IMG/VR virus record: IMGVR_UViG_3300036770_001646
Coordinates: 1-32,824 of that record
DNA length: 32,824 nt
Source: a virus
Reading direction: 5' to 3' (one strand)
The notes under the pieces: model-generated
Database searches by the model: none
The model's input: only the letters and a program-made list of their open reading frames with translations
Told to the model about the DNA's origin: nothing
Translations under genes and position numbers: made by a program
Shown: piece after piece, positions 5,483 to 32,824 of the stretch
Layout of the letters: the number at the start of each line of letters is the position of its first letter
Position numbering within the stretch: position 1 is the stretch's first letter

Positions 5483-5490
5483 GTAAGTTT

Positions 5491-5536
5491 GAGGGTAGGT
5501 CGAACACGCAGGGCGACCTACCCTCATTCTGTTTTT
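5491..5536 (+). terminator. Intrinsic terminator after major capsid gene
   Basis: GAGGGTAGGTCG (5491-5502) pairs perfectly with CGACCTACCCTC (5514-5525), a 12-bp GC-rich stem with an 11-base loop, followed by a T-rich run ATTCTGTTTTT. This is the best-looking intrinsic terminator in the window. It separates the head operon from the glycosyltransferase cassette, so the latter probably depends on read-through or its own promoter. Confidence 0.88.
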
Positions 5537-5562
5537 ATACCCTGCGACCTGCGAAGGAGAGA

Positions 5563-6864
5563 ATGGTGGGAAAGAATGCTCGTAATCGTAAAGAACACTC
5601 CAATCGAGTTACCAGACTTGGAAGCAGAGATATTACTCCGCAGGGGAATAGCGCATTTGCCAGAGCAAGCAGACCTTCCTCTCCCGAATCGTTACGAATC
5701 CTCTGGTACTCGAACGCCCCGTTCGCCCCAACAGGGTACGGAACCCAAACAGCGCAAGTCGTCCAAAGGCTCATCAAAGAAAAACACGAAGTAGCCATCC
5801 ATGCCATGTATGGCATCGAGGGTATGGCTTCGATGTGGAATGGGATAAAGCTTTATCCGAGAGGTATGTCACCTTATTCGGATGATGTGCTTGTTGCGCA
5901 TTGGATGGATTGGGCGAATGGTAATCGTGATATTTCTGCGATGTTGATGACGTTGTTTGATGTGTGGGTGTTGAAGTCACCTTCGTTGGATCAGGTTCCG
6001 AATATCGCTTCGTGGGTTCCGATTGATCATGCGCCTTGCCCGCCAGAGGTTGTGTCGTGGTGTAAGCGTCCGAATGTGAAACCGATTGCGATGTCTAAGT
6101 TTGGTTTGGACATGTTGCAGAATGCGGGTGTTGATGCGATGTATGCGCCTCATGCGTTTGAGGATGTGTTTGTTCCTACACATAAGTTGAACAATGGTCG
6201 TGGTGAGTTCACCGGCAGACAGCTGATGGAGGTGGATGAGGACAGGTTCGTTGTCATGATGAATGCTGCGAACAAAGGTCAGAACCCTTCACGCAAATCT
6301 TTTGGTGAGAACATTCTGGCGTTCGCTATCTTCGCTCAAGACCGTCCTGATGCTTTGCTGTATCTGCACACGGAGCGTGATGGTGCGATGGGTGGTATCA
6401 ATCTTGTGCATCTACTGGAGGCGTGTGGTGTTAAGAAGGAGCAATACAAGATTGTTGACCCTTACGCCTATCGGACTGGTTTCCCCCAGCAAGCGTTAGC
6501 AGCGCTGTACACCGCTTCGGATGTGCTGTTGGCTTGCTCAATGGGTGAGGGTTTCGGTATCCCTGTTATCGAGGCTCAGGCCTGTGGTACACGGGTCATC
6601 GTTTCCGACTACACCGCTCAGCCTGAGTTAGTTGGCGTTGGGTCAGCTGTGGCAATTCAACCGTTCTGGGATAGCCATCAGAAGTCTTGGTTCTGCACTC
6701 CACAGGTGCCATCCATCGTAGAGGCTCTGATTGAGGCCTACGAAGCCCCTAGAGGCGTGTCAGACGAGGCTGTGGCCTTTGCTAGCCAATACAGGGCTGA
6801 CAGCGTGTATGAGGCTTACTGGAAGCCAATCATGAAGCATTTGTCTGAGTGGTGTAGAGCATGA
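5563..6864 (+). CDS. Glycosyltransferase, GT-B fold (family 4-like)
   Basis: The product (433 aa) should transfer a sugar from a nucleotide-sugar donor to an acceptor that cannot be read from sequence. The conserved part begins near residue 44 with RILWYSNAPFAPTGYGTQ, a usual start for this phage family. The donor-binding C-domain has Glu329-Gly-Phe-Gly...Glu337 (EGFGIPVIEAQACG), the E-x7-E motif of GT4 enzymes. The first 43 residues look unlike the family and coincide with another gene in a different frame. ATG 5563 and GTG 5566 are the only canonical starts upstream of the domain, and a GGAG lies only three bases before the ATG. It is followed by three coupled genes and lies directly after the capsid gene, so virion proteins are plausible acceptors. 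Composition shifts from A/C-rich to G/T-rich near base 5815. Confidence 0.85.
   Translation: MVGKNARNRKEHSNRVTRLGSRDITPQGNSAFARASRPSSPESLRILWYSNAPFAPTGYGTQTAQVVQRLIKEKHEVAIHAMYGIEGMASMWNGIKLYPRGMSPYSDDVLVAHWMDWANGNRDISAMLMTLFDVWVLKSPSLDQVPNIASWVPIDHAPCPPEVVSWCKRPNVKPIAMSKFGLDMLQNAGVDAMYAPHAFEDVFVPTHKLNNGRGEFTGRQLMEVDEDRFVVMMNAANKGQNPSRKSFGENILAFAIFAQDRPDALLYLHTERDGAMGGINLVHLLEACGVKKEQYKIVDPYAYRTGFPQQALAALYTASDVLLACSMGEGFGIPVIEAQACGTRVIVSDYTAQPELVGVGSAVAIQPFWDSHQKSWFCTPQVPSIVEALIEAYEAPRGVSDEAVAFASQYRADSVYEAYWKPIMKHLSEWCRA
5576..5794 (+). CDS. Small protein out of frame inside glycosyltransferase 5' end (72 aa)
   Basis: The first 30 residues, MLVIVKNTPIELPDLEAEIL then LRRGIAHLPE, look like a natural small phage protein of the kind often encoded right after the capsid gene (a beta-hairpin followed by a helix ending in a Gly-Ile/Leu-Ala turn). 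The tail is basic and low-complexity (K/S/T/Q-rich). It starts 13 bases after the glycosyltransferase ATG in a different frame and lies wholly within that gene. GGTGGG lies five bases before its ATG. Two genes competing for the same bases make one or both start assignments uncertain; function unknown. Confidence 0.5.
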   Translation: MLVIVKNTPIELPDLEAEILLRRGIAHLPEQADLPLPNRYESSGTRTPRSPQQGTEPKQRKSSKGSSKKNTK

Positions 6865-7487
6865 ATAGTGGCATATACCGCATTGACCTAGGCAACGGCT
6901 GGTTCTACATCGGATCTGCCGTTAATCTTTCAAGACGCGAGGCGGTACATCGCAGCACATTAAATCACGGCAAGCACAGCAACATAAAAGTGCAAAGGTG
7001 TTGGAATAAATATCGTGTTTTTGTTTTCAATGTTTTAGAGATATGTGAAAAATCTGAGCTTATATCTCGTGAACAGTTTTATTTAGATAAATATTTTAAT
7101 AACAAAAAAAATACAAATATTGCTCCTACAGCTGGTTCAACATTGGGTCGTATTTTTTCTGATGAAACAAAAGCAAAAATGTCAAAAGTCCAAAAAGGTA
7201 AAAAGGGCTATGTTCGTTCGGCAGAGACTTTAAAGAAATTATCTCTTTCTCAAAAAGGAAGAATTATTTCTGCAGAGCATCGAGCAAAATTATCTAATGC
7301 CAACAAAGGCAAAACCCTGTCAATTGAAACACGACAAAAAATATCTGCTGCTGGTAAAGGCAGAGTATTTTCAGATGAACATCGTGCAAAAATATCGGCT
7401 GCTCATAAAGGAAAAGTTCATTCTGTTGAGCATCATAAAAAAGTAACCGCTACTAAAAAATTACGTCGTGAACAGTCTGGTCAATAA
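6861..7487 (+). CDS. GIY-YIG homing endonuclease with NUMOD3 repeats
   Basis: A 208-aa nuclease. GIY at residues 4-6 and YIG at 16-18 define the catalytic module, continuing with the RREAVHR region and the REQFYLDKYF helix. The rest is an array of about five NUMOD3 DNA-binding repeats of the form FSDETKAKMSKVQKGK / SAEHRAKLSNANKGK / FSDEHRAKISAAHKGK. Such enzymes cut unoccupied alleles so that their own gene is copied in. The gene is much more AT- and Lys-rich than its neighbours, which fits recent arrival. It sits between two glycosyltransferase genes, coupled by ATGA and TAATG overlaps without disrupting either, so it is free-standing rather than intron-borne. Confidence 0.93.
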   Translation: MNSGIYRIDLGNGWFYIGSAVNLSRREAVHRSTLNHGKHSNIKVQRCWNKYRVFVFNVLEICEKSELISREQFYLDKYFNNKKNTNIAPTAGSTLGRIFSDETKAKMSKVQKGKKGYVRSAETLKKLSLSQKGRIISAEHRAKLSNANKGKTLSIETRQKISAAGKGRVFSDEHRAKISAAHKGKVHSVEHHKKVTATKKLRREQSGQ

Positions 7488-8152
7488 TGATTCCCGTCAT
7501 AATCGTTCCAGTATTAAACCGTTACGACCTTTTAGAACGCTGTTTGCAATCCATTGATTATCCGGTGGAGACACTTATCGTGGTTGACAACGGTGGGCAA
7601 TCCACACTTCACGACTGGCCTTGGGTGATTGACCGTCGCCATGTCAAGAACTATCACGTCTGGTCAATGCCAACCAACCTTGGAGTTGCAACATCGTGGA
7701 ACCTAGGGATTAAGGCAACGCCATTGGCTAACGGCTGGATACTTCTTAACTCGGATGCTTACTTTTTGCCAGGGCAGTTACAGGTTTTCTACAATGATTG
7801 TCAGCCTGATTCGGTGACATTGACTCAGGCGCAGCCTGGTTGGTCTTGTGCGTGGGTTGGTGAGGAGCCGATTGCCAAGGTTGGTCTTTTTTGTGAGGCT
7901 TTTTATCCGGCGTACTTTGAGGATACGGATTGGCAGGAACGGGCTAAACGGTTGAACATACAGTTTTTCACTTCTGATGCTGGAATTATTCATGACAATT
8001 CTTCTACGATTCTGTCTGCACCAAAGTTAATGGAAAAGAACAATAAAAGTTTTGCTGCTAATGGTGCGCTTCATGCGATGCGTTGGCAGTCAGGGTTGCC
8101 TGATGCGGGTCATTGGGATTTAACACGACGAAGGGAACTCGGATGGGACTAA
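7487..8152 (+). CDS. Glycosyltransferase, GT-A fold (family 2-like)
   Basis: A 221-aa enzyme with the start of GT2 proteins: PVIIVPVLNRYDLLERCLQS, then IVVDNGGQ and the metal-binding region ILLNSDAYF (D-x-D-like, near residue 91). A later acidic block AYFEDTDWQERAKR resembles the ED motif that supplies the catalytic base. It is shorter than many GT2 enzymes but holds the whole catalytic core. Its ATG overlaps the homing endonuclease stop, and its own end overlaps the next start, so the cassette is probably translated together. Donor and acceptor cannot be read from sequence. Confidence 0.85.
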   Translation: MIPVIIVPVLNRYDLLERCLQSIDYPVETLIVVDNGGQSTLHDWPWVIDRRHVKNYHVWSMPTNLGVATSWNLGIKATPLANGWILLNSDAYFLPGQLQVFYNDCQPDSVTLTQAQPGWSCAWVGEEPIAKVGLFCEAFYPAYFEDTDWQERAKRLNIQFFTSDAGIIHDNSSTILSAPKLMEKNNKSFAANGALHAMRWQSGLPDAGHWDLTRRRELGWD

Positions 8153-8808
8153 GAGAATACGACCCAATGGACGACTATGAGAATCTGCATGAAGGCGAGA
8201 CCATCTATGTTCTCGGCTCAGGAGCAACACTCGACTATCTGACACCCGACTTCTTTGATGACAAGCTCACGATTGCGGTGAACTTCGTTGGCTCAGTATT
8301 CGGGTTGAAGGGTTACTACTGTTTCAGTCATTACCATCAGGACGCTAAGCATGAGGCAATGCGTGAAGACTGTATCGGTGTGTTTACCCCTGAGAGGGAG
8401 CATGGTACGGATGGGTCGTTTGGTGGGTTTATGCCGAACATCACCACGTTCGGTACTCGTACTGGCAGACCTGGTGCGTCGTTTGACCCGCACGATAAAG
8501 ATTGGCCTTGCTTGTCGGGGCAGTTGACTATCGGATCATCGAGCATTCATGGGGCGATGCACCTTGCAGCGCACATGGGAGCGAAGTTCATTGTTTTGGT
8601 TGGGGCTGACTGTGGTTCGTTGGGTGGGCGTGACAGGGTTGACGGTTATGTGTCAGGTGATTCGCCTTGGGGTTTGTATGAGATGCACCTTCGAGCGATG
8701 AAGCAACGGTTGTGGGATGTGTACTCATGCCAGGTGTATTCGTTGAACCCGTTTGTGAACTATTCGCTTGAGGGTGTTCAGTATCGTGGTGCTGCTTCAA
8801 TCAACTAG
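8143..8808 (+). CDS. MptE-like/DUF115-like protein of the glycosylation cassette
   Basis: A 221-aa protein starting MGLREYDPMDDYENLHEGET. The N-terminus has a Rossmann-like phosphate loop (IYVLGSGATLDYL) followed by LTIAVNFVG, and mid-protein segments LSGQLTIGSSSIHGAMHLAA and FIVLVGADCGS, a pattern seen in the 6-hydroxymethylpterin pyrophosphokinase MptE-like / DUF115 group that often lies beside glycosyltransferases. Its chemistry here is unknown; a nucleotide- or sugar-transfer role is inferred from neighbours. I chose ATG 8143 because AAGGGAAC precedes it by four bases; an in-frame ATG at 8113 lies deeper inside the upstream gene. It ends the cassette before the connector genes. Confidence 0.65.
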   Translation: MGLREYDPMDDYENLHEGETIYVLGSGATLDYLTPDFFDDKLTIAVNFVGSVFGLKGYYCFSHYHQDAKHEAMREDCIGVFTPEREHGTDGSFGGFMPNITTFGTRTGRPGASFDPHDKDWPCLSGQLTIGSSSIHGAMHLAAHMGAKFIVLVGADCGSLGGRDRVDGYVSGDSPWGLYEMHLRAMKQRLWDVYSCQVYSLNPFVNYSLEGVQYRGAASIN

Positions 8809-9851: not shown

Positions 9852-9881
9852 TTGATACACATTCCTGCGAGCGTGTAGAGT
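9852..9881 (+). promoter_or_regulatory. Possible promoter upstream of the tail tube gene
   Basis: TTGATA (9852-9857), an 18-base spacer and TAGAGT (9876-9881) resemble a sigma-70-type promoter and lie about 45 bases before the tail tube ATG. The match is moderate (five of six and four of six to consensus). The 74-base gap is unusually long for this operon, which is why I looked. The gene itself has a good Shine-Dalgarno (AGGCAGGAG, 9910-9918). Confidence 0.35.
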
Positions 9882-10380: not shown

Positions 10381-10671
10381 ATGAAAATAGCGTTAGAAAT
10401 AACTTCTGCTTTGGATTCGTCCAAGCGAACCATCATGGCAACATTCCCAGACTTTATTGCGTTTGAAAAAAAGTTCAACAAGAGTGTCGCCAAGTTTGAA
10501 GCCGAACTAACTTTGACTGACCTTGCATATATCGCATGGCATTCTGAACATCGTCAGAAGAAGACGGGTCTTGATTTTGATTCGTGGATTAACGATGTTG
10601 AGACTTTGGAGTTGGGGGATCAAGCTAACGCTGTGATCGTCCCTTTGGAGACCAGTCAGCGCATTGGATGA
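10381..10671 (+). CDS. Tail assembly chaperone, short form (gpG-like)
   Basis: A 96-aa protein with strong ribosome-binding site CGGAGGAAAA. Segments FPDFIAFEKKFNKSVAKFEA and LTDLAYIAWHSEHRQKKTGL are typical of actinophage tail assembly chaperones that coat the tape measure during tail building. It lies between tail tube and tape measure, as expected. Near its end is a CCCTTTG heptamer in the right phase for a -1 frameshift, which would yield a longer fusion with the next small reading frame. Its TGA overlaps that frame's ATG. Confidence 0.88.
   Translation: MKIALEITSALDSSKRTIMATFPDFIAFEKKFNKSVAKFEAELTLTDLAYIAWHSEHRQKKTGLDFDSWINDVETLELGDQANAVIVPLETSQRIG
10641..10647 (+). other. Probable -1 programmed frameshift site CCCTTTG
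   Basis: The heptamer is read C-CCT-TTG in the chaperone frame, a perfect X-XXY-YYZ slippery sequence. Slippage back one base leads into the downstream frame as ...F-GDQSAHWMMAYLSVETG..., which stays open to 10790. The downstream frame has a TAA at 10626-10628, so any shift must happen after that point, and this heptamer fits the short allowed window. The predicted fusion is 89 plus 47 residues, 136 aa. Confidence 0.8.
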
Positions 10672-10790
10672 TGGCGTACCTGTCCGTCGAGACAGGGATC
10701 GCTCCATCGGTGTTGCTGGCAGAAGACCCTCGAATGTTGTTCACGATGTTTGCTTATTTGCGTTGGAGAGCAATTCATCTCAACAAGTAG
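10668..10790 (+). CDS. Tail assembly chaperone, frameshift extension (gpT-like)
   Basis: An open frame of 40 codons from its first ATG, encoding MAYLSVETGIAPSVLLAEDP then RMLFTMFAYLRWRAIHLNK. This is the typical second half of the gpG-GT chaperone of long-tailed phages (short helical domain, ETG...P turn, ML..M..YLR helix). It is probably made mainly as a -1 frameshift fusion to the preceding protein rather than from its own ATG, which has no good ribosome-binding site. It is too short to be found by usual length cut-offs. Confidence 0.8.
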   Translation: MMAYLSVETGIAPSVLLAEDPRMLFTMFAYLRWRAIHLNK

Positions 10791-10799
10791 TCTGTTGTG

Positions 10800-11318
10800 A
10801 TGGCGGTTTTTGGTAGAGCAGGTCAAGTCACAATTACTGGTGGCAATCAACCGGTAGAGATTGTTGGTCTTGCAAACTTTTTGCGTGACGCTGCGAAGGC
10901 TGACGAACGGTTCAATACTGAGATGCGTAAGGCTGCCCAGCAGGTCGCAGAGAATCTGAATGAGAAGGCTAAGGCTGAGGCTACGACTGTCACCCGTTCC
11001 CGTCAGGCAACTGAGGTGATGAAAGGGATGCGGGCTAGGCGTGACCGTATCCCGACAATTAAGTTGAGTGAGAAGTCTGCGTTCGTTTCTAAGTCGAATC
11101 CGAACAGGAAGCGCAAGCGCAAGGTGACTAGGGGTGACGTGTTCTTTGGTGCCGAGTTCGGTGGTCAGGCTAGGCCTCGGACTCAGCAGTTCTTGCGTCA
11201 TCGTGGCAGGTCAGGTTATTTCTTCTGGCAGACCGTCCGTAAAGAGAAGGGCAACATCGCCAAAGAATATCTGGATGCAATCCAGAAGGTTCTCAACACT
11301 CTGAAGGATGGTTCTTGA
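10800..11318 (+). CDS. HK97 gp10-like minor head-tail/tail protein
   Basis: A 172-aa, strongly basic protein. It starts with beta segment GQVTITGGNQPVEIVGLAN, then a helical region FLRDAAKADERFNTEMRKAA followed by more helix, and a C-terminal FFGAEFGGQARPRTQQFLRH motif (hydrophobic 'F.G.EFG' region) seen in HK97-gp10-like proteins of the head-tail junction. Here it lies between the chaperones and the primase-like gene rather than beside the connector. ATG 10800 is preferred; GTG 10797 is one codon earlier. No Shine-Dalgarno is visible; TAGTCT on the previous stop lies six bases upstream. Confidence 0.7.
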   Translation: MAVFGRAGQVTITGGNQPVEIVGLANFLRDAAKADERFNTEMRKAAQQVAENLNEKAKAEATTVTRSRQATEVMKGMRARRDRIPTIKLSEKSAFVSKSNPNRKRKRKVTRGDVFFGAEFGGQARPRTQQFLRHRGRSGYFFWQTVRKEKGNIAKEYLDAIQKVLNTLKDGS

Positions 11319-11338
11319 CTTTGATTTAGTTTCCTGTA

Positions 11339-11355
11339 CCCTCTAGGTAGGAGGG
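11339..11355 (+). promoter_or_regulatory. Hairpin that could mask a ribosome-binding site
   Basis: CCCTC (11339-11343) can pair with GAGGG (11351-11355) around the loop TAGGTAG. The right arm contains most of the Shine-Dalgarno AGGAGG of the gene starting at 11359, so folding would hide it. The stem is only five pairs but all but one are G-C. Inference from sequence pairing only. Confidence 0.45.
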
Positions 11356-11358
11356 CGT

Positions 11359-12069
11359 ATGGCTGTTTTATTTGCTAACACTAAGTCGATATATCCGAAG
11401 CGGTTCGCTTCGTCTTGGGAACAACTCAAAGAGCTGTTGTCGTTCCATGAGGAGAATGCTGTCAAGGCTGCGGGGGCGTTGTGGTCTCCGGTTGAGTATG
11501 ACCAGGGTACGACTAGAGGTAACCGTAACGTCAGGTTTGTTGAGGCGTTGGTTGTGGACATGGACGGTGAAGCGTTTGATGAGGCGCGGTTGGATGGGTT
11601 GGAATGGTTTGCGTATTCCACCTATTCGCATCGTTTAGATGACCCTCACTATCACCTCGTTTTGCCGTTAGCGGAGAAGGTGCCTGCTTCGTTGTGGCGG
11701 GTTGTGTGGGCTGAGTTGCATGACCGTATCGGGTTGGTCGGTGACCCTCAGACTAAAGACCCTGCTCGTATTTTCTATCTACCTCAACATGCACCCGATC
11801 AGCCGTTTGAGTTCCATGAGGGTCATGGTGTGTTGTTGGATTCGTCGTTCAGGTTGGATGTTGAACCTGTCATCAATCCTGTGTCGCCTCGCTCAAAGCA
11901 GGTTCGTCAGCCTCGTGCGCGTCGTGCTGGTTCAGAGATGATGAGTGAGGCTTGGTGGAATGCGCCTGTTGATATTTCTCGTTGGGATGGCCTGACAGGG
12001 AAGGCTTTGTATTCTGCGATGCTGGATGAGTTCAACGCTTTACTGAATGGGTTGTCTGTTATTGAGTAG
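11359..12069 (+). CDS. Orphan primase-like (archaeo-eukaryotic primase type) protein
   Basis: A 236-aa protein whose core matches the replication-initiator/AEP primase pattern: a metal-binding D67-M-D69 in ALVVDMDGE, then Y-S-T-Y-S-H91, HYH99LVLPL, and a KDPAR137IFYLPQ block. These correspond to the DxD, sxH and basic motifs of the nucleotidyl-transfer site. The C-terminal 60 residues are basic then helical and lack any helicase motif. The prim-pol at 28335 is a different protein. Its place between a minor tail gene and the tape measure is very unusual for a replication enzyme. It could be a primer-making enzyme, a nicking or initiator relative, or a repurposed fold; activity is inferred from motifs alone. 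Confidence 0.62.
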   Translation: MAVLFANTKSIYPKRFASSWEQLKELLSFHEENAVKAAGALWSPVEYDQGTTRGNRNVRFVEALVVDMDGEAFDEARLDGLEWFAYSTYSHRLDDPHYHLVLPLAEKVPASLWRVVWAELHDRIGLVGDPQTKDPARIFYLPQHAPDQPFEFHEGHGVLLDSSFRLDVEPVINPVSPRSKQVRQPRARRAGSEMMSEAWWNAPVDISRWDGLTGKALYSAMLDEFNALLNGLSVIE

Positions 12070-12078
12070 AATCGTCGC

Positions 12079-14169
12079 ATGGCTGGTGAGCGGACGTTCG
12101 TTGTTAAGTTTATTTCCGATGTTGCAGGTGCCACCAAAGGCATCAAATCGGTTGGCGGGGAACTAGGCGCATTAGGAAAAAAACTTGGGTTAAGCCTTCC
12201 ATCGTTCAAACAGGTTGCTATTGCTAGTGCTGCTGCCACCGGTGCTATCGCAGCGGGCTTATTCAAAGCATCTCAAGCAGCAGCCGAAGACCAAAAATCT
12301 CAAGCCCTGTTAGCCGATCAGTTAATCAAAACTACTGGAGCAACCACAGCACAGATTCGCCAGGTTGAGGAATACATTGATGTCACTCAACGTGCTACTG
12401 GTATTGCTGATGACCAGTTGAGGCCTGCTATAGCCACGTTGACTCGTGCGACTGGAGATTCGACTAAGGCTCAAGAGTTGCTTGGTTTGGCGTTAGACAT
12501 CTCTGCTGGTTCAGGTAAGGAACTTGAGACTGTAACTTTGGCTTTGGCTAAGGGCGTTAACGGTAACGTCGGTGCATTCACCAGGCTTGGTATTCCACTT
12601 GATGCCAACATTATTAAGACAAAAGATTTTGCTGCAGCTCAAGAAGTTTTGAGCAAGCAGTTTGGGGGTGCTTCGGCTGTTGCTGCGGGAACCTTTGAAG
12701 GTCAGATGAAACGATTGAATATCGTTATTGGTGAAGCGATTGAGTCTATCGGTTATGCGATTCTTAATAGTGACAGGTTCAAGGATGTGATGCAGAACCT
12801 TCCAAACGCTGTTCAGGCTGCGATTGATGCTTTCGGAACTGGTGGATTCTCAGGTGCTTTGAATGCCTTTGCAGATAATTTGGGATACACCGGTGCGCAA
12901 GTGAAGCTGAAATTGCTTGCGATGAAGGCAGAGTTCTTTGACTTTGTTGATGGTGTGACCCGTGCGCTTCAACTGATAAGCCTTCCAATCAACCTTCTAT
13001 TCGGGACGATCAACTCAATCGCTGGTACGGAACTTCGTATTTCTACACCAGCAGATACCAAGAAACAGTTAGATGATGCGAACGCTGCTTTGGCTGAGCA
13101 AAAGAAAGTTGTTGAAGAGTTAGGCATCATCTACAACGAAAACACCCGTAAGACTAGAGCTACTGGCGCTGAGTCTTCTCGATGGACAGATATCGCTAGA
13201 TCGCTTGGTTCAACTATTGAGGTGACCACTTCTAGTGTTAATGGGCTTGGTGGCGGTGTTAAGAAAACTGGTGATGCACTTAAGACTGCTAGTGAAAAAC
13301 TGAAGTCTTATAGTGATTCTTTGAAGTCCACGACTTCGGCACAGAAGTCATTCAATGATGCTCAGAGGGGTGCTGTTAAGGCCACTAGATCAAAGGCTGA
13401 TGCTGATCTTGCTGTTGCTGATGCTCAAGCAAAATTGGCTCAGATTTCGCAAGGCTTCGGTGTGGGTTCACCGGAGGCGTTGGCTGCGCAGGCTCAGTTG
13501 GCTAGGGCGCAACGTGCGCAGGAGCGGGCTGTGTATGCGATTGAGGAGGCTGTTTTCTCGGTTGCTGATGCTGAGAAGAATCTTGCTGAGGTTCGTAGTG
13601 ATCCTGAGTCTTCGCCTATGGATATTCGTCGTGCGGAGATTAGTTTGGCTGAGGCCAAGTTGGCTGTTTCTGACGCTACTGATTCTCAAACGGAATCCAC
13701 TAAAGAATTGAATGACCAACAACGGTTGTTGAATGAAGCAATTTTTGGTGCCACGATTGGTTCGATTGTTTATGATGACGCTTTGGAGGCGGTCAATAAT
13801 GCGAAGGAGCGTCAGGCTGAGGCTGCTGAAGCTTTAGCTGATGCGCTTGAACGTGAGAAGGATGCGCAGAATAGGTTGAATGATTCCATCAAAGCGACTA
13901 TAGATTTGATGGCAAAGTATCCGAAGGTTTTGGGTGGGATGCCTAACCCGATGGCAAACCTTGTTCCTGATAGCACTTTGGCAAATAATGCTTCAAGCCT
14001 CTTTAATGGTGGCGGTATGGGGAATGTCAACATCGAGGTCAACGCTGGGTTGGGTGCTAGTGGGATTGAGATTGGTCAGGAAATTGACCAGTACTTGCGT
14101 GAATATCTTGGCTTCTCTGGTCAGACGTTCTCGTTCGGTTCTATCGGGAACTTTGTTGGCGTTAGATAA
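12079..14169 (+). CDS. Tail tape measure protein
   Basis: A 696-aa protein that sets tail length and is ejected into the cell. The N-terminus (FVVKFISDVAGATKGIKSVG) and an Ala/Gly-rich hydrophobic stretch (residues 45-65) are typical. Residues 75-230 form the conserved helical domain (ALLADQLIKTTGATTAQIRQ..., ALAKGVNGNVGAFTRLGIPL). Residues 400-620 are long coiled coils rich in Ala, Glu, Lys and Gln. I see no peptidase or muramidase motif. At the usual 0.15 nm per residue the tail would be about 100 nm. Its TAA overlaps the next ATG; TAGAAT lies six bases before its own ATG and no Shine-Dalgarno is visible. Confidence 0.92.
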   Translation: MAGERTFVVKFISDVAGATKGIKSVGGELGALGKKLGLSLPSFKQVAIASAAATGAIAAGLFKASQAAAEDQKSQALLADQLIKTTGATTAQIRQVEEYIDVTQRATGIADDQLRPAIATLTRATGDSTKAQELLGLALDISAGSGKELETVTLALAKGVNGNVGAFTRLGIPLDANIIKTKDFAAAQEVLSKQFGGASAVAAGTFEGQMKRLNIVIGEAIESIGYAILNSDRFKDVMQNLPNAVQAAIDAFGTGGFSGALNAFADNLGYTGAQVKLKLLAMKAEFFDFVDGVTRALQLISLPINLLFGTINSIAGTELRISTPADTKKQLDDANAALAEQKKVVEELGIIYNENTRKTRATGAESSRWTDIARSLGSTIEVTTSSVNGLGGGVKKTGDALKTASEKLKSYSDSLKSTTSAQKSFNDAQRGAVKATRSKADADLAVADAQAKLAQISQGFGVGSPEALAAQAQLARAQRAQERAVYAIEEAVFSVADAEKNLAEVRSDPESSPMDIRRAEISLAEAKLAVSDATDSQTESTKELNDQQRLLNEAIFGATIGSIVYDDALEAVNNAKERQAEAAEALADALEREKDAQNRLNDSIKATIDLMAKYPKVLGGMPNPMANLVPDSTLANNASSLFNGGGMGNVNIEVNAGLGASGIEIGQEIDQYLREYLGFSGQTFSFGSIGNFVGVR

Positions 14170-16073: not shown

Positions 16074-16108
16074 ATGGCTGGACTTGGAAGAAAAGAATGG
16101 TCGCCTGG
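16074..16108 (+). repeat. Direct repeat, copy 1 (gene start of fibre-base protein)
   Basis: Thirty-five bases starting at this ATG are identical to 16296-16330, the start of the next gene, and similarity continues at lower level for the full 200 bases. It marks a tandem duplication of a coding module. Confidence 0.95.
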
Positions 16109-16283
16109 AGACACGCTCACCGCAGCAGATGTCAACGGCTATCTCATGGATCAGATGGTGATGGTGTTTTCTGGTACAGCTGAACGAGACTCAGAGATAC
16201 CTTCACCTTCAGCAGGAATGGTTTCGTATTCAACAGCAACAGGAGTGGTCGTGTACAACGGCACAGCCTGGGTGAGCGTGTAA
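16074..16283 (+). CDS. Short tail fibre-base protein, duplicated module (69 aa)
   Basis: The product MAGLGRKEWSPGDTLTAADV...YNGTAWVSV is a small module often found at the start of tail fibre or tip proteins. It is closely similar over its full length to residues 1-68 of the next gene, but stops after the YNGxAWV motif with no fibre domain. It may be a trimming remnant of a duplication or a separate subunit that assembles with the longer paralogue. An AGGA ribosome-binding motif lies before the ATG. Confidence 0.75.
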   Translation: MAGLGRKEWSPGDTLTAADVNGYLMDQMVMVFSGTAERDSEIPSPSAGMVSYSTATGVVVYNGTAWVSV

Positions 16284-16295
16284 AGTAGGAGCATC

Positions 16296-16330
16296 ATGGC
16301 TGGACTTGGAAGAAAAGAATGGTCGCCTGG
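16296..16330 (+). repeat. Direct repeat, copy 2
   Basis: Identical to 16074-16108, 222 bases upstream. See the first copy. Confidence 0.95.
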
Positions 16331-17204
16331 CGACACTTTAACTGCATCGGATGTTAATGGTTACCTGATGGATCAATCGGTGATGGTGTTCGCAGGCACC
16401 GCAGCACGAGCCTCAGCCATCCCAACCCCATCAGCAGGAATGGTTGCATATTCAACTGCAACAAGTTTGCAGGTCTATAACGGTTCAGCTTGGGTTGATG
16501 TGTCAACTGGATATGGTTCTGCTTCTGGTGGATCAGCTTCAAGTATTACCGTTGCTGGTACTGCTTATACTTTGTTGACATTTACAGCATCAGGAACATT
16601 AACTGTTGGTAAATCTGGTTTGTTTGATGTGTTGATTCAATCAGCATCTGGTGGTGGTGGTGGAACATCGACAACACTTCACGCTTCTGGTGGTGGCGGT
16701 GCAGGTTCGGTTACTGAAGCAACCGTTTATTTAACAGCAAATCAAACCATAACTTTGGGTGCTAAAGGTTTGGGCGGTGCTGGTGGTGCAAACGGAACTA
16801 ATGGTGGTAAAACAACTTTTGGTTCCTTGCTTGTTGGTGCTGCTGGTGCTGGTGGTGCAGCAAGAGCAGAACCAACTCGTAACGGTGGTTGTGGTGGTGG
16901 GGCTTCAAATGGCACGAACCTTACTGGCGGTGTTGGTTTTGTTGGGGGTAATGGTGGAAACGGTGTACAGGATGCTGGTTCCGGTGCTGGTGGTGGTGCG
17001 GGTGGAAACGCAACTACAACAACTCCTGGTGTGGGTATCACAACATCGTTTACAGGAGCTTCTGTAACTTATGGGACTGGTGGTGCTGCAAGCGGTGGTG
17101 CTGCTGGGACTAATGGTGATGGTGGTGCTGGTCGAAGTACGGCAGCATCGGGAACTGGCGGGGATGGTTCGGATGCGAAAGTATTTGTGAGGTTTAAGGT
17201 ATGA
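16296..17204 (+). CDS. Glycine-rich tail fibre/tail tip protein
   Basis: A 302-aa protein with two parts. Residues 1-68 are the duplicated fibre-base module (SPGDTLTASDVNGYL, VYNGSAWVDV). After a Ser/Gly linker and a beta segment (TLLTFTASGTLTVGKSGLF) the rest, about residues 115-300, is extremely glycine-rich with runs such as SGGGGG, GGAGGANGTNGG and GGVGFVGGNGGNG. Such sequences form polyglycine helix bundles in phage adhesins and usually bind the host receptor at loops. The gene ends with FVRFKV and overlaps the next ATG. It is a likely host-range determinant. Confidence 0.8.
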   Translation: MAGLGRKEWSPGDTLTASDVNGYLMDQSVMVFAGTAARASAIPTPSAGMVAYSTATSLQVYNGSAWVDVSTGYGSASGGSASSITVAGTAYTLLTFTASGTLTVGKSGLFDVLIQSASGGGGGTSTTLHASGGGGAGSVTEATVYLTANQTITLGAKGLGGAGGANGTNGGKTTFGSLLVGAAGAGGAARAEPTRNGGCGGGASNGTNLTGGVGFVGGNGGNGVQDAGSGAGGGAGGNATTTTPGVGITTSFTGASVTYGTGGAASGGAAGTNGDGGAGRSTAASGTGGDGSDAKVFVRFKV

Positions 17205-22541: not shown

Positions 22542-22823
22542 ATGACAAACAGACAAAAGCAAGCAACAGTTGGGATAGGTATGGCGATTATGTGGGGGTT
22601 CTGGTTGTTACCAACAGCCGAAGACCTACCAGATGCACAGCCAGCAACCTCGCTCGAATGGAAACTATTCTTCGCACTTAACTTCGTTGCAATTATTTAC
22701 GTCCATATCTTGAATGTGCGTGAGCATCAACGACAGCTGCGAATCGAAGCACAGGAACGCCATTGGCAACGCATGGAAACACGTGCGCGTCACAACCATC
22801 CAACCAACCGTGACTACCAATGA
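22542..22823 (+). CDS. Two-span membrane protein (93 aa)
   Basis: ATG 22542 follows AAAAGGAGGG by four bases; an earlier ATG (22521) has no such site. Residues 8-26 (ATVGIGMAIMWGFWLLPTA) and 45-64 (LFFALNFVAIIYVHILNV) are membrane spans, and the C-terminus is a charged amphipathic helix rich in Arg, His and Gln. Function unknown; it immediately precedes and overlaps the WhiB gene (ATGA). Confidence 0.6.
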   Translation: MTNRQKQATVGIGMAIMWGFWLLPTAEDLPDAQPATSLEWKLFFALNFVAIIYVHILNVREHQRQLRIEAQERHWQRMETRARHNHPTNRDYQ

Positions 22824-23110
22824 GTAGTGGTCATGTAGTTGACCTGTGGTCAGATGGTGACAACACCTTCAGACCTCAACGCCCAGACTGGCAAGAGATA
22901 GCACGATGCAAAGGTGAAACCGAACTGTTCTTCAATGAAGGTTCGCCACACGCAATCGCTGATGCGAAACTGTTTTGTGCTGGTTGCAACGTGCGTCGAA
23001 TCTGTCTCAAGTTCGCGTTAGACAACGACGAGGTAGGCATCTGGGGTGGTACGACTACGATGGAGCGTCAAAGGTTGAAACGGTCTAGGAGAAAACAAAT
23101 AGACTTATAG
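22820..23110 (+). CDS. whiB: WhiB-family iron-sulfur transcription regulator
   Basis: A 96-aa Wbl protein. Four Cys ligands of a 4Fe-4S cluster are visible: one in IARCKGE, two in FCAGCNV (C-x2-C) and one in RRICLKFA, followed by the G-I-W-G-G turn (EVGIWGGTT) and a basic tail (RQRLKRSRRKQ) that contacts DNA. Wbl proteins bind the primary sigma factor and are found only in actinobacteria and their phages. A phage copy may turn off host genes or switch the phage program, and it is placed just before the replication promoter at 23773. Confidence 0.93.
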   Translation: MSSGHVVDLWSDGDNTFRPQRPDWQEIARCKGETELFFNEGSPHAIADAKLFCAGCNVRRICLKFALDNDEVGIWGGTTTMERQRLKRSRRKQIDL

Positions 23111-23772: not shown

Positions 23773-23800
23773 TTGACAAAGCAATTCAACCTGCTACTGT
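23773..23800 (+). promoter_or_regulatory. Probable promoter of the replication operon
   Basis: A perfect TTGACA (23773-23778), 16-base spacer and TACTGT (23795-23800) lie in an 82-base gap before a gene with strong AGGAGG (23828-23833). The -10 match is weak (three of six), yet the -35 is exact, and the location upstream of the exonuclease-SSB operon is where an early promoter is expected. Confidence 0.5.
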
Positions 23801-23841: not shown

Positions 23842-24993
23842 ATGACAACATCAGACGAGTTCAGCCTGTTGGCTGAAGCACCAAAAGACCGTTGGGGTCG
23901 CTACAAAATTAGTGATCCAGCAACAGGAAAAGAACGTGGTTACACACGTGTCACAACAATCGCAAAAGTGTTGGACGATTCATCGTCGCTTGCTGATTGG
24001 AAAACACGGATGGCAATCACCGGCATCGTTCAACGAGCCGATCTGCTTGCTCAAGCATCAACATCGTTGGATGATCGAAGCAAACTGAACAAGATTGCGA
24101 ACGATGCGATTGAAAGTGCTGGCGCATATAGTCGGGCGAATTTAGGAACCGCCCTCCACAGTTTGACCCAGCAACTTGACCTTGGTATGAAGCCACAAAT
24201 CCTTCAAGGATTACAGGCAGATATTGAAACCTATGTCACCTCAATCGCAGCGTGGGACTTTGGTATGCGCAAAGAATGGATTGAAGTTCTGCTCATCAAC
24301 GACGAGTATGAATACGCTGGTACAGCAGACCGAATCGTCACCACCCGTGACGGCAAAATCTGCATCTTCGACCTAAAGACTGGAACAGACCTGTCCTACA
24401 GTTTTGGATCAATTAGCGTCCAGCTCGCCATGTATGCCAGAGCAGACTGGATTTACGACTGGAAAACAGGCGAACGCACAGCACTCCCAGCAGGCTTAGA
24501 CATGAAAGAAGGCATCATCTGCCATCTTCCAGCAGGCGAAGCAACCTGCAAGTTCTACACAGTAGACCTCGAAGCAGGATGGGAAGCAGCGAAGATGTCG
24601 TTCGCAACCCGCGACTGGCGTAAGCGTAAAGACCTATTCAAGCCATACACGTTCTCTGACGAGAAGCGGAGAGTCGTCGAGCCTGTGGCAAATCCGATGC
24701 CACAGGCAGACGATGCCGGTTCCCTAGCCCTCACAACCCGACAGGACTGGATGAAGGCTCGTATCTCAGCCTTACCGAAAGAAGCACAGAAGCTACTGAT
24801 TCTGATGTGGCCTGATGATGTGCCGAAGTTGCAGAACTGCACGATGGAACAGATTGACAAACTTATTGAAGCCATCACAACTGTAGAGGCTGAGCATTCC
24901 GCACCATTCTTTGCACCTGACCCAACGGTGAAGAAGGTGGTCAAGCGTAAGTTGAAGGCATTCGATACTGCTGAAATCGGAAGCATCCAATGA
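23842..24993 (+). CDS. PD-(D/E)XK exonuclease, RecB/Cas4-like
   Basis: A 383-aa nuclease. The N-terminal helical part leads to ANLGTALHSLTQQ (His of the G-x-x-x-H motif), EYAGTADRIV (metal Asp), and KICIFDLKTGTD (D-x-K core), then VQLAMYARAD (Q-x3-Y), the standard order of RecB-family exonucleases. It probably processes DNA ends for recombination or replication. The C-terminal 100 residues are basic and helical and may bind a partner. It begins the operon with the SSB-like protein and overlaps the next ATG by four bases. Confidence 0.85.
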   Translation: MTTSDEFSLLAEAPKDRWGRYKISDPATGKERGYTRVTTIAKVLDDSSSLADWKTRMAITGIVQRADLLAQASTSLDDRSKLNKIANDAIESAGAYSRANLGTALHSLTQQLDLGMKPQILQGLQADIETYVTSIAAWDFGMRKEWIEVLLINDEYEYAGTADRIVTTRDGKICIFDLKTGTDLSYSFGSISVQLAMYARADWIYDWKTGERTALPAGLDMKEGIICHLPAGEATCKFYTVDLEAGWEAAKMSFATRDWRKRKDLFKPYTFSDEKRRVVEPVANPMPQADDAGSLALTTRQDWMKARISALPKEAQKLLILMWPDDVPKLQNCTMEQIDKLIEAITTVEAEHSAPFFAPDPTVKKVVKRKLKAFDTAEIGSIQ

Positions 24994-28086: not shown

Positions 28087-28338
28087 ATGAAAACTAAACG
28101 ACGCACACGCAACGGATACATCTATCCGGCTTCAGCCTTACTCAAACAGTTCCCCGATGATATGTGGGCATCAACAATCGGTGAACGTCTTGGCGTTGGT
28201 AGAGCTGCAATTCAAACATGGCGAGAAGGCAACACATGTCTAGATCAATGGCGAGCCGATAAGTATGCGTGTCTGCTGGGGAAACATCCGTCAGAGATTT
28301 GGGCTAACTGGTTTGATGAAGTGGAGATTGCCTCGTGA
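28087..28338 (+). CDS. Helix-turn-helix DNA-binding protein (83 aa)
   Basis: A short basic protein with strong ribosome-binding site TTGGAGGG. The core ASTIGERLGVGRAAIQTWRE is a helix-turn-helix followed by RADKYACLLGKHPSEIWANW, a pattern also seen in small phage regulators and excisionase-like proteins. It lies just upstream of the prim-pol and overlaps it, so it may control replication gene expression or mark the origin. Not an integrase partner, since no integrase is present. Confidence 0.7.
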   Translation: MKTKRRTRNGYIYPASALLKQFPDDMWASTIGERLGVGRAAIQTWREGNTCLDQWRADKYACLLGKHPSEIWANWFDEVEIAS

Positions 28339-30362
28339 CCATGCGTGAAGAAGCCATCAAGCTCGCAGAGTTAGGTATCAGGGTTATCCCGATTAAGCCT
28401 GGTCAGAAGTATCCACCGATGGCACAATGGCAGAACAAAGCCAGCAACGACATCCACGTTGTCAATGACTGGTTCACGAGCCAATACTCAGGCTACGGAA
28501 TTGGTATTGCTACAGGAGCAACACGACACGGACGCATCTTCGTACTCGACGTGGACGATAGGGAAGAATACAAAGGCTCAGACACCCTGCATGACCTACA
28601 AGAAAAGTACGGTCAACTACCAGAGACCGTCACAGCCATCACAGGTACCGGTGGACAACACCTGTACTTCTACTGTGACCAAGACATCCGCAACGACGCA
28701 GGCTCACGCCTCGGTGTCGGACTCGACATTCGTGGTGAAGGAGGACAAGTCCTCGCAGCCCCAACCATCCACCCCAACGGACGCACCTACGAATGGGAAC
28801 ATGGCCTCAGCCCACACGAACGCAAACCAGCCAAAGCACCAGACTGGCTCGTCAAACTCTTAACCAAACAACCAGAGATGGTCAAACCCGCAGGACAACC
28901 CGACAATTTCCTCACCGACCCCAACACCCCATCAGCCCGATACAACGCCAAAACAACGTGGGAAGAACTCCTCATCCCCGACGGCTGGACACTCGCCAAG
29001 ACTGACCGGCATGGTGAACAGCATTGGGTTCGCCCAGGCAAAGACCCCCGTGACGGAACCAGCGCAACGATTGGTCACAACGGCAACGACGCACTCATCG
29101 TCTTCACCAGCTCTATCCCTTGGCTACCAGAAGGCGGATACAACCGCTTCGGATACTATGCAGCGTCAAAGCATGGAGGAGACTGGAAACAAGCCTCACA
29201 AGCCTTCCTAGCCACCAATGAAGGCAAACCCGAACCCATCACCCCAATCCCCACACCCGACGAAATGCTGTCGATGCTAGTGGACTGGAAAACATTCTGG
29301 TCACTCGAACACGCCACAGAAGAATGGTTAGCCAAACCACTCATCGCCAAAGGCCGTCAGACAGCCCTATTCGCTGGAGCCAAAACAGGTAAGTCATGGC
29401 TGACTTTGAATGTCACCGCAGCACTTGCCACCGGCAAACCCATCCTCGGACAACCAGCACAACCACCAGTCCACGTCCTGTATTTGGATTACGAGATGAT
29501 TGAATCAGACCTCTACGAACGCCTAGAACAATTCGGCTACACAGAAGACGACGACCTCTCCCACCTCCACTACGCACTCATCCCCAACCTCCCCCCACTC
29601 AACACCACCGAAGGTGCCTCAGCCATCATGAAACTCGTAGAACTCACCAAGGCTGAGGTCGTAGTGATAGACACCACAGGACGAGCCATCGATGGTGAAG
29701 AGAACTCAGCTGACTCATATCGTGAGTTCGCACGAACCACAGGCCTAGCCCTCAAACGAGCCAACATCTCCTGCATCCGCACAGACCACGCAGGCAAAGA
29801 CGGAGGAAAGAAACAAGGACAACGAGGCTCCTCAGCCAAGAACGACGACGTAGACATCGTCTATCGCCTCGACAAATCCGATGACGGCCTCACACTCAAA
29901 CGAACCCACACACGCATCAGCTGGGTACCAGAAACCGTCAGCCTCATAGTCGAAGACCTAGACGACACCATCACCATCCGACTCCGCACCAAAGAACTCA
30001 AAGGCTGGACACCCGCAGAAATCGCCCTCGCCAAACGCCTAGACGAACTCGGCATCCCACGAGAAGCAGGAGTCAACGAAACCCAACGCATCGCCAAAGA
30101 ACGAGGCATCACACTCGCCCGCAAATCAATCCTCGGACGAGCCATCCAATGCAGACAACAACCAAGACCAGACCCACTAGAAACGGGAACCACCCTCGGG
30201 AACCACTTCACAGAACCCAACACGGACAAGGGAACCACCCCCCGTACCGTAAGGTACGGTGGGGTTCCGTCCCAGCCCCAGCCGTCCTCAACCATCATCA
30301 ATCAAGACAACAATCAAGACAACGACCAAGACAACGCCAACCTCGAATCAGAACTCTGGTAG
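28335..30362 (+). CDS. Primase-polymerase fused to RepA-like hexameric helicase
   Basis: A 675-aa fusion. Residues 1-180 are a bifunctional primase/polymerase domain (Prim-Pol): IPIKPGQKYPPMAQWQ, D72-V-D74 in VLDVDDR, and GGQH109LYFYC, then GLDIRGEGGQVLAAPTIHP. Residues 330-560 form an AAA-type helicase: Walker A GAKTGKS (348-354), VLYLDYEM, Walker B VVIDTTG with D446, and a later D-H-A-G-K-D. The last 60 residues are low-complexity with QDN repeats. It should synthesise primers and unwind DNA and is the main replication protein here. GTG 28335 overlaps the upstream gene; ATG 28341 is two codons later. The 3' end also holds DNA repeats and a hairpin. Confidence 0.88.
   Translation: MTMREEAIKLAELGIRVIPIKPGQKYPPMAQWQNKASNDIHVVNDWFTSQYSGYGIGIATGATRHGRIFVLDVDDREEYKGSDTLHDLQEKYGQLPETVTAITGTGGQHLYFYCDQDIRNDAGSRLGVGLDIRGEGGQVLAAPTIHPNGRTYEWEHGLSPHERKPAKAPDWLVKLLTKQPEMVKPAGQPDNFLTDPNTPSARYNAKTTWEELLIPDGWTLAKTDRHGEQHWVRPGKDPRDGTSATIGHNGNDALIVFTSSIPWLPEGGYNRFGYYAASKHGGDWKQASQAFLATNEGKPEPITPIPTPDEMLSMLVDWKTFWSLEHATEEWLAKPLIAKGRQTALFAGAKTGKSWLTLNVTAALATGKPILGQPAQPPVHVLYLDYEMIESDLYERLEQFGYTEDDDLSHLHYALIPNLPPLNTTEGASAIMKLVELTKAEVVVIDTTGRAIDGEENSADSYREFARTTGLALKRANISCIRTDHAGKDGGKKQGQRGSSAKNDDVDIVYRLDKSDDGLTLKRTHTRISWVPETVSLIVEDLDDTITIRLRTKELKGWTPAEIALAKRLDELGIPREAGVNETQRIAKERGITLARKSILGRAIQCRQQPRPDPLETGTTLGNHFTEPNTDKGTTPRTVRYGGVPSQPQPSSTIINQDNNQDNDQDNANLESELW
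30185..30270 (+). repeat. Iterated GGGAACCAC repeats and strong hairpin in the prim-pol 3' end
   Basis: GGGAACCAC occurs at 30185, 30198 and 30230. Just after, CCGTACC (30242-30248) pairs with GGTACGG (30253-30259) around GTAA, a GNRA-type tetraloop, and the arms extend outward with GGGG and TTCC against CCCC and GGAA. Codons here encode a weakly constrained tail, so the DNA itself may be selected, for example as a replication origin or protein-binding site. Confidence 0.65.
30300..30335 (+). repeat. Three tandem 12-bp repeats at the prim-pol C-terminus
   Basis: Units AATCAAGACAAC, AATCAAGACAAC and GACCAAGACAAC follow each other, encoding repeats of (N/D)-Q-D-N. They lie near the end of the gene and may come from slippage. 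Confidence 0.9.
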
Positions 30363-31340: not shown

Positions 31341-32739
31341 TGGTGCGCTGGTCAGCGACTTTGCAAGAACTTTTCTGCACGTGTCGAAGGGTGTTCGTGC
31401 GGGTGAGCCATTGGTGCTTACTGGTTGGCAGTCTGATTTATTGGATAATCTTTTTGAGCGTCGTCCTGATGGTCTCCTTCGTTACCGACGCTCGCTGATT
31501 GGTCTTGCGCGTAAGAACGGTAAATCACTTTTAGGTTCTTTGGTTGGTCTTTACAATTTGATTGAGGGCGAACCTGGTGCTGAGGTGTATTCCGCAGCTG
31601 GTGACCGCAAACAAGCACGGGTTGTTTTTGATGAGGCGAAGTGGCAGGTGTTGCAGTCGCCAGCTTTGTCGGGTGTATGCAAGGTGTATCGGGATGTGAT
31701 TGAAGTTCCGTCTACGGGTGCGGTGTATCGAGTGCTATCTAGCGATGCGAAACTTCAGCAGGGTTTGAATCCGTCGTGTGTGGTGTTTGACGAGTTGCAC
31801 GTTCAACCCAATAGCGAGTTGTGGGATGCGTTGACGTTGGGTTCGGGTGCGCGTAAAGACCCACAGATTATTGCTATCACTACGGCTGGTTATGACAGGG
31901 ATTCAATCTGTGGACAGTTGTATAACTATGGCAGGCAGATTATTTCTGGTCAGACTGTTGATGAGCGTTTTGGGTTTTGGTGGTGGGAAGCACCTGATGG
32001 TTGCGCTGTTCATGACCGAGATGCTTGGGCGCAAGCGAACCCGAACTTGGCTGAAGGTTTGCTTGACATGGAAGACATGGAAGTCAGCATGAACCAGACA
32101 GCTGAGGTGCCGTTTCGTAGATACAAACTCAATCAATGGGTCAGGCAGGAGGACTCACCTTGGCTTCCGGCTGGCGGTTGGGAACAATGCCAATCAGAAC
32201 TTCAGGTTGACCCAGCGTTGCCGATGTTCGTGGGGATTGACATGGCGTTGAAGCATGACTCGATTGCTGTGGTGTTGTGCCAACCTCAAGGTCATCGTCT
32301 GGTGGTTCGTGCGAAGATTTGGATTCCTGATGGGGCGATGACTGACATCGCAGCTGTCGAGCAATATCTGCGTGGTTTGCATCGTGAGTTCAATGTCCGT
32401 GAGTTTGCTTATGACCCAGCGTTCTTTCAGCGTTCGGCTGAGGCTTTGGCTGATGATGGTTTGCCAATGGTCGAGTTCCCGCAGTCTGCTCAACGCATGG
32501 TGCCTGCTATCGGAACACTCTATGAGTGCATTGTGAATCAGCAGTTGGCTCATGATGGCGATCCGATGTTCACCGATCAGGTGTTGTCAGCTGTGCCACG
32601 TCAGACTGATGCTGGACTTCGGTTGTCTAAGGGCAAGTCGCGCCGCAAGATTGACGCTGCTATCGCGTTGGCTATGGCTGTGGATCGTGCGACTCGACGT
32701 GAAGAGGTAGCACCTGTGCCTGGGTTCTTTGTAGTCTAG
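31324..32739 (+). CDS. terL: Terminase large subunit (ATPase-nuclease)
   Basis: The DNA-packaging motor, 471 aa from TTG 31324. The ATPase domain has a Walker A variant RKNGKS (residues 63-68 in GLARKNGKSLLGSL) and Walker B VVFDEL with D156-E157. The nuclease domain has D306 in GIDMALKHDS and D444 in IDAAIALAMAVD. I chose TTG 31324 (LYPKSDGALVSDFARTFLHV) because the N-terminus then resembles other actinophage large terminases; the in-frame ATG 31216 is deep in terS and its first residues are shadow, and GTG 31381 would cut conserved sequence. The right half duplicates 1-859 because of the terminal repeat. Confidence 0.92.
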   Translation: MYPKSDGALVSDFARTFLHVSKGVRAGEPLVLTGWQSDLLDNLFERRPDGLLRYRRSLIGLARKNGKSLLGSLVGLYNLIEGEPGAEVYSAAGDRKQARVVFDEAKWQVLQSPALSGVCKVYRDVIEVPSTGAVYRVLSSDAKLQQGLNPSCVVFDELHVQPNSELWDALTLGSGARKDPQIIAITTAGYDRDSICGQLYNYGRQIISGQTVDERFGFWWWEAPDGCAVHDRDAWAQANPNLAEGLLDMEDMEVSMNQTAEVPFRRYKLNQWVRQEDSPWLPAGGWEQCQSELQVDPALPMFVGIDMALKHDSIAVVLCQPQGHRLVVRAKIWIPDGAMTDIAAVEQYLRGLHREFNVREFAYDPAFFQRSAEALADDGLPMVEFPQSAQRMVPAIGTLYECIVNQQLAHDGDPMFTDQVLSAVPRQTDAGLRLSKGKSRRKIDAAIALAMAVDRATRREEVAPVPGFFVV

Positions 32740-32824
32740 AGTCATGCTTATTTTCCTGCTAGAAGTTTTCTCAATCCTGCTCATCGCTTATGGACTATTC
32801 TTGATAGCAATTCCATTAGGGCTG
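31881..32824. repeat. Right copy of 944-bp exact terminal repeat
   Basis: Matches 1-944 at offset 31,880. See the left copy. Confidence 0.97.
32744..32824 (+). CDS. Small membrane protein, truncated by the window end
   Basis: The first 27 codons of the 48-aa membrane protein that is complete at 864-1010, cut off by the window edge. Confidence 0.6.
   Translation, partial: MLIFLLEVFSILLIAYGLFLIAIPLGL

Follow-up and report, generated by a model that had tools for sequence, protein, structure and literature searches.

A predicted stand-alone AEP primase with a conserved promoter-like site, fixed among the tail genes of freshwater actinobacterial phages

The window, that is, the whole stretch of viral DNA analysed here (IMG/VR record IMGVR_UViG_3300036770_001646, 32,824 nucleotides), is bounded by a 944-base direct terminal repeat. 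As its two copies, at 1-944 and 31881-32824, are identical, the window represents a complete genome, of 31,880 bases. The presence of a gene for a WhiB protein (22820-23110) suggests that the phage has an actinobacterial host. The gene of interest, hereafter PRIM, is located at 11359..12069 on the plus strand and encodes a stand-alone primase of 236 residues that belongs to the archaeo-eukaryotic primase (AEP) superfamily, as argued below; its open reading frame is real and its ends are exact. The genes around it are arranged in the order tail terminator (9444), major tail (9926), small tail-chaperone-like (10381), MIN (10797), PRIM and tape measure (12079). MIN, the upstream neighbour (10797..11318, plus strand, 173 residues, start uncertain), is a putative minor tail gene without PHROG or Pfam match. 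It occupies the place of minor tail genes in related phages, and its label and that of the chaperone-like gene were given from position and from the equivalents in Pontimonas phage phiPsal1. The tape measure gene, TMP (12079..14169, plus strand), has PHROG tape-measure matches at 1e-9; it starts 10 nt past the PRIM stop codon, with a weak Shine-Dalgarno (SD) sequence and no promoter-like site. Near the end of the chaperone-like gene, a slippery-like CCCTTTG (10641-10647) and a possible -1 extension (10671-10790) make up a candidate G/GT frameshift.

Two other loci are relevant to the interpretation of PRIM. An exonuclease gene (23842..24993, plus strand; phrog_466, PDDEXK_1) is the first of a putative replication/recombination set. 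The second AEP of the genome, a Prim-Pol fused to a RepA-like AAA_25 helicase, is encoded at 28335..30362 on the plus strand (PF09250, E 8.5e-39; PF13481, E 5.7e-22), and thus far from PRIM, as an earlier sequence-only reading of this DNA had pointed out.

That same reading had proposed that PRIM is primase-like and has no helicase part, and profile searches bear out both proposals. Residues 31-169 of the 236 match phrog_9765, a DNA primase family (9e-17), and the N-terminal part of phrog_256 (6e-9), and both families are matched by 69 out of 69 members of a diverse PRIM alignment. The two profiles are 939 and 798 positions long, of which only about 120-140 are matched by PRIM, the helicase part being absent. 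PRIM has no Pfam match, including none to PriCT-1, PriCT-2 or a helicase domain, and PDB sequence searches gave nothing significant. Among known phages, primase- or helicase-type proteins were retrieved by tblastn at 25-32% identity to PRIM. In profile-profile comparisons, the PRIM family matches six replicative phage AEPs with an E-value of 3e-22 and a probability of 99.5%. The possibility that PRIM is a recent duplicate of the window's own Prim-Pol was rejected, as the profile-profile comparison of the two gives no match (probability 0.5%).

Structure prediction, which had been suggested as a check, yielded an AEP fold and not an unrelated one. The AlphaFold2 model built on the 69-sequence alignment has a mean pLDDT of 83.6. 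Its predicted parts, all on the plus strand, are an AEP catalytic core (residues 1-166, 11359..11856, pLDDT mostly above 90), a low-confidence linker (residues about 167-195, 11857..11943), and a conserved C-terminal element, WWN.P.DxSRxxG..., followed by a helix at residues 215-235 (11947..12063). The Foldseek and VIA matches are headed by the AEP domain of phage S-2L PrimPol (Z 8.9, rmsd 3.4 A, 135 residues), the only match above Z 8. RepB', CAPP, PriS and LigD PolDom come next at Z 5-6.3; because HP0184, an unrelated chain, scores Z 7.2, those AEP matches carry weight only as a consistent group. The solved structures of RSF1010 RepB' and cyanophage S-2L PrimPol resemble the PRIM fold over 132-135 residues (Z 6.3 and 8.9), with just 11-14% identity to PRIM in these comparisons. 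The matches among viral predicted structures comprise an uncharacterised protein with 61% identity to PRIM as well as numerous primase-helicases. By its sequence matches and its model, PRIM is a stand-alone AEP domain.

AEP catalytic motifs have been defined as hhhDhD/E (motif I), sxH (II), hD/E (III) and Rh (IV) (PMC5862659, PMC4538821). Their counterparts in PRIM, on the plus strand, are D67-x-D69 in the sequence VVDMD (11557..11565), H99 (11653..11655), D129 (11743..11745), which aligns with the Asp of known primases, and R137 with Q143 six residues on (11767..11787), all of them invariant in the 69-sequence alignment. The residues of motifs I to IV are kept down to about 35% identity and are invariant across clades that are about 47% identical. 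In most members the 's' position of motif II is H97, which is not small, and the residue that precedes D129 in the window protein is a Gly, which is not hydrophobic. Motif II is known to vary between AEP families, and in RepB' it carries a Gln (PMC5862659). A motif IV followed six positions on by a nucleotide-binding residue is the spacing of the PrimPol-PV1 supergroup (PMC5862659). PRIM has this arrangement, with R137 and Q143 invariant and a hydrophobic residue at position 138, and it lacks the PriCT-1/PriCT-2 or helicase domain of that supergroup. The active site proposed in the first reading was partly right: DMD corresponds to motif I, the latter His of HYH (H99) to motif II, and DPAR contains R137, whereas YSH (S90/H91), albeit conserved, does not hold the canonical motif II His, and D129 had gone unnamed. 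Two natural variants were observed, H91N in lineage L181 (L181:780-1571), where D67, D69, H99, D129 and R137 are kept, and D69E in lineage L149 (L149:1524-2255), where the acid is retained. Conservation of the two aspartates, on which the first reading had staked its proposal, thus holds in the 69 aligned homologues, with a Glu at position 69 in L149.

Relative to the window gene, the median dN/dS of PRIM is 0.135 (79 comparisons), with values of 0.113 for the major tail gene and 0.325 for TMP. Together with the PHROG matches of all 69 members and the invariant AEP residues, this ratio puts the observation well outside what chance would give. The invariance of the motif I-IV residues and this low ratio suggest that PRIM is catalytically competent. 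They bear on a repurposed fold, one of the options initially raised, according to which a dead AEP would serve as a tail-assembly or nucleic-acid-binding factor. The location of the gene and the H91N and D69E variants might be taken to favour it. However, D69E is still acidic, the motif II His is H99 and not H91, L181 retains its catalytic residues D67, D69, H99, D129 and R137, and all the catalytic motifs, invariant in the 69 sequences, are under purifying selection, so that we regard this option as very improbable. The H97-Y/W-H99 arrangement also looks like that of HUH proteins, and the fold list contains weak Rep matches at Z about 3, as if PRIM might be an HUH endonuclease or a Rep initiator instead of a primase. 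Yet H97 is replaced by Ala in the PRIM-family member L189 and by Arg in L088 while H99 is kept, which leaves no conserved pair of His residues; moreover, the DxD motif is invariant, and the sequence families and the fold list consistently indicate an AEP. An HUH or Rep identity is scarcely conceivable on these grounds.

Far from being a one-off oddity, PRIM is part of the core gene set of freshwater actinobacterial phages that make up a large and widespread group. The first scan alone gave 340 related viral contigs in IMG/VR, and iterated searches collected 143 distinct PRIM proteins, down to about 35% identity, which form 19 clusters at 80% identity. The position between a minor tail and a tape measure gene that had drawn attention in the window, and for which a search of the tail operons of related phages had been advised, is found throughout: the order MIN-PRIM-TMP occurs in 228 of the 228 loci with both neighbours readable. 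PRIM is also present in all 80 loci collected through MIN, an anchor that avoids selecting loci by PRIM itself. Scans of bacterial and archaeal genomes, with only two short peptide patterns each, found no relatives of PRIM. The Prim-Pol/helicase is encoded by the window and also by the four longest PRIM-carrying records (G001-G004). The idea that PRIM is the sole primase of some phages is unsupported, as the contigs devoid of a Prim-Pol gene (G005-G009) end before its place in complete genomes.

One stand-alone member of the PRIM family, L189 (L189:3859-6077), is found beside a tyrosine integrase gene and outside any tail operon; its contig, which also bears genes for a small terminase and a capsid protein, may come from a temperate phage or from a satellite. 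Because L189 keeps both the PRIM-family domain and the C-terminal motif away from tail genes, neither of them is specific to tails. In a tree, the tail-operon members and L189 are parted from the replicative AEPs by a branch of moderate support (83/87), with L189 and L088 on long branches.

Phage AEPs are already known, including stand-alone ones near helicases. Those of the phrog_9765/phrog_256 type, such as gp43 of Corynebacterium phage Adelaide and the 'DNA helicase' of Blautia phage NatCom_24097, share with PRIM the AEP domain, motifs I, III and IV and the N-terminal layout. They differ in being long proteins with an N-terminal AEP, encoded in the replication module and 25-32% identical to PRIM, and the related replicative phage AEPs that we compared have an Arg where the PRIM family has H99. 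Single-domain AEPs of about 290-315 residues with a PRIM-like core are found in Vibrio phage V6Aob (102), Vibrio phage 2.058.O (095), phage C48C1 (39) and PT1028 (ORF003), but they are encoded near replication or helicase genes, have another C-terminal sequence and carry an Arg at motif II. A protein of an uncultured Caudovirales phage, UniProt A0A6J5S580, is 61% identical to PRIM over its full length; it belongs to the same family and is devoid of annotation. The nearest cultured relative, phiPsal1, has the same order of structural genes as the window and a 45% identical MCP. In contrast, it has no AEP, its MIN gene is directly followed by TMP, and it harbours RepO in place of the Prim-Pol. 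L083, a relative of phiPsal1, likewise has MIN directly followed by TMP and no AEP.

Immediately upstream of PRIM there is a conserved promoter-like site, TTGACT-N16-TACCCT (11315..11342, plus strand), followed by the SD sequence AGGAGGG (11349..11355, plus strand), the strongest predicted among the 24 window genes checked. Across relatives, the MIN-PRIM gap shows TTGAC(T/A)-N16-TACCCT and then a strong SD. The site is not listed by a standard promoter scan, since the rule of that scan wants a closer match to the E. coli consensus than TTGACT/TACCCT. With a rule set after the site had been seen (TTGnnn-N16/18-TAnnnT within 80 bases of the gene), it was found upstream of PRIM in 114 of 117 distinct sequences and upstream of TMP in none of 102. 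By clade, the numbers are 80 of 81 in clade I, with 6.8 expected in shuffles, and 34 of 36 in clade II, with 0.4 expected; as upstream sequences from clade I are close relatives of one another, counts of distinct sequences do not represent independent events. Clade I sites have a spacer of 16, and those of clade II usually have one of 17. The central positions of the -10 element vary (TACCCT, TACGCT, TAGGGT, TAGAGT, TAGGCT, TAGTCT, TAAGGT) while TA...T is constant; papers on transcription starts in mycobacteria reportedly deal with TANNNT as a form of the -10 element. The -35 element of clade II overlaps conserved MIN codons, and its conservation there may be protein-driven. We also considered a hairpin that would sequester the SD (CCCTTCT/AGGAGGG), a candidate that was discarded because in the three clade I leaders able to form it folding is no better than in shuffles (z +0.06 to -0.66).

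Close matches to the site were sought in ten PRIM-carrying records, and only those of PRIM and of the exonuclease gene recur, the PRIM sites of G005 and G006 appearing only under the looser rule given above. In the window, the exonuclease site is TTGACA-N16-TACTGT (23773..23800, plus strand). The spacers of the two sites agree, both being 16 in clade I and both 17 in clade II. For each of the other tail-region genes, such a site is present in 0-16% of the upstream sequences, except for the major tail gene, where the count is 40 of 78; in the window the latter has TTGATA-N18-TAGAGT at 9852-9881. As this similar site is partly conserved at a tail gene, the type of promoter does not prove early timing. 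We take the PRIM site to be a probable promoter.

In the strongest ordinary rival to our interpretation, this promoter would drive TMP and the distal tail genes, and PRIM would simply be the first cistron, coding for an enzyme of late replication or of packaging-linked DNA processing. The gap of just 10 nt between PRIM and TMP, in which a terminator scan found nothing, and the partly conserved site of the major tail gene agree with this scenario. Conversely, TMP has neither a site of its own nor a strong SD, the nearest equivalent of the PRIM site, with clade-matched spacing, is that of the exonuclease gene, and phiPsal1 and L083, which lack PRIM, have TMP right after MIN, so that a promoter here is tied to PRIM. 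We consider this rival unlikely.

It is also tempting to speculate that PRIM is made late and travels in the tail or is ejected with the DNA, to prime, fill in or repair the genome as it enters, ahead of any phage gene expression. The N4 virion RNA polymerase and the plasmid primases transferred by conjugation are analogues for such a virion-borne primase. As with virion-packaged early proteins, namely polyvalent proteins and the N4 vRNAP, PRIM is encoded among virion genes. That fixed position between two tail genes is, in our overall weighing, the sole point in favour of a place in the virion; the strength of the PRIM SD and the precedent for early-acting enzymes encoded among virion genes (PMC5512222) would also fit. 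Against it stand the conserved promoter-like site of the exonuclease-gene type and L189, in which this domain and this C-terminal motif are found outside a tail context; furthermore, we identified no packaging signal. A virion-borne PRIM is in our opinion distinctly unlikely. If true, it would be a novel way for a phage to begin replicating its DNA, and PRIM would be the first phage primase shown to be so delivered, as far as the literature surveyed goes.

We favour, with moderate confidence, the interpretation that PRIM is an active intracellular primase of replication or recombination, with its own promoter, lodged among late tail genes. It would then be a catalytically competent stand-alone AEP that acts on phage DNA in the infected cell and lays primers for a host or phage polymerase. 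A replication-type gene would have been inserted once or rarely between the minor tail gene and TMP, in an ancestor of the PRIM-carrying phages. Its transcription would start from its own promoter of the housekeeping-sigma type and not solely come from the late tail transcript, probably together with that of the exonuclease-led replication genes. We infer this intracellular role because the promoter-like site is deeply conserved and of a type common to the exonuclease gene. The known relatives of PRIM that we examined belong to replication modules, where they are either joined to a helicase or encoded close to one, and early expression, a role in replication and a helicase or polymerase partner are presumed for PRIM. 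PRIM is probably an early enzyme of an ordinary kind that happens to be encoded at an unusual location, and not a part of the tail. There are counterpoints to this proposal. The promoter-like site would also transcribe TMP, 10 nt on, and may hence serve late genes; an early gene would not need a strictly fixed position in a late operon; and the proposal does not account for a second primase in a genome that already encodes the Prim-Pol/helicase.

The setting of PRIM had appeared to be undescribed, and in a non-exhaustive literature search, with most subscription journals outside its range, we found no description of a core AEP gene that is fixed in a tail operon, has a replication-type promoter dedicated to it and shares its genome with a second Prim-Pol. 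Our analysis gives a specific, predicted enzymatic assignment to a core protein, previously uncharacterised, of freshwater phages that form an abundant group (>340 IMG/VR contigs). Position in a tail operon need not imply a structural role, as a gene of the replication type can persist among tail genes with a conserved promoter-like site of its own. Why a 32-kb phage with a Prim-Pol/helicase retains a second, differently built primase is a testable question.

Other features of the window deserve mention. Between the capsid and glycosyltransferase genes, a long inverted repeat, GGGTAGGTCG/CGACCTACCC, at about 5490-5540 is followed by a T-rich stretch. It shows paired changes in relatives (GGCCA/TGGCC), and a conserved terminator is therefore likely at this place. 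The glycosyltransferase-type genes come directly after the capsid gene, at 5563-8808 (PF00534 at 5563), and are interrupted by an open reading frame (6861-7487) that looks, by eye, to be of the GIY-YIG homing type. Finally, the starts of the consecutive genes 16074-16283 and 16296-17204 are near-identical over about 69 residues, which by sequence is a tandem duplication of the start of a distal tail protein.
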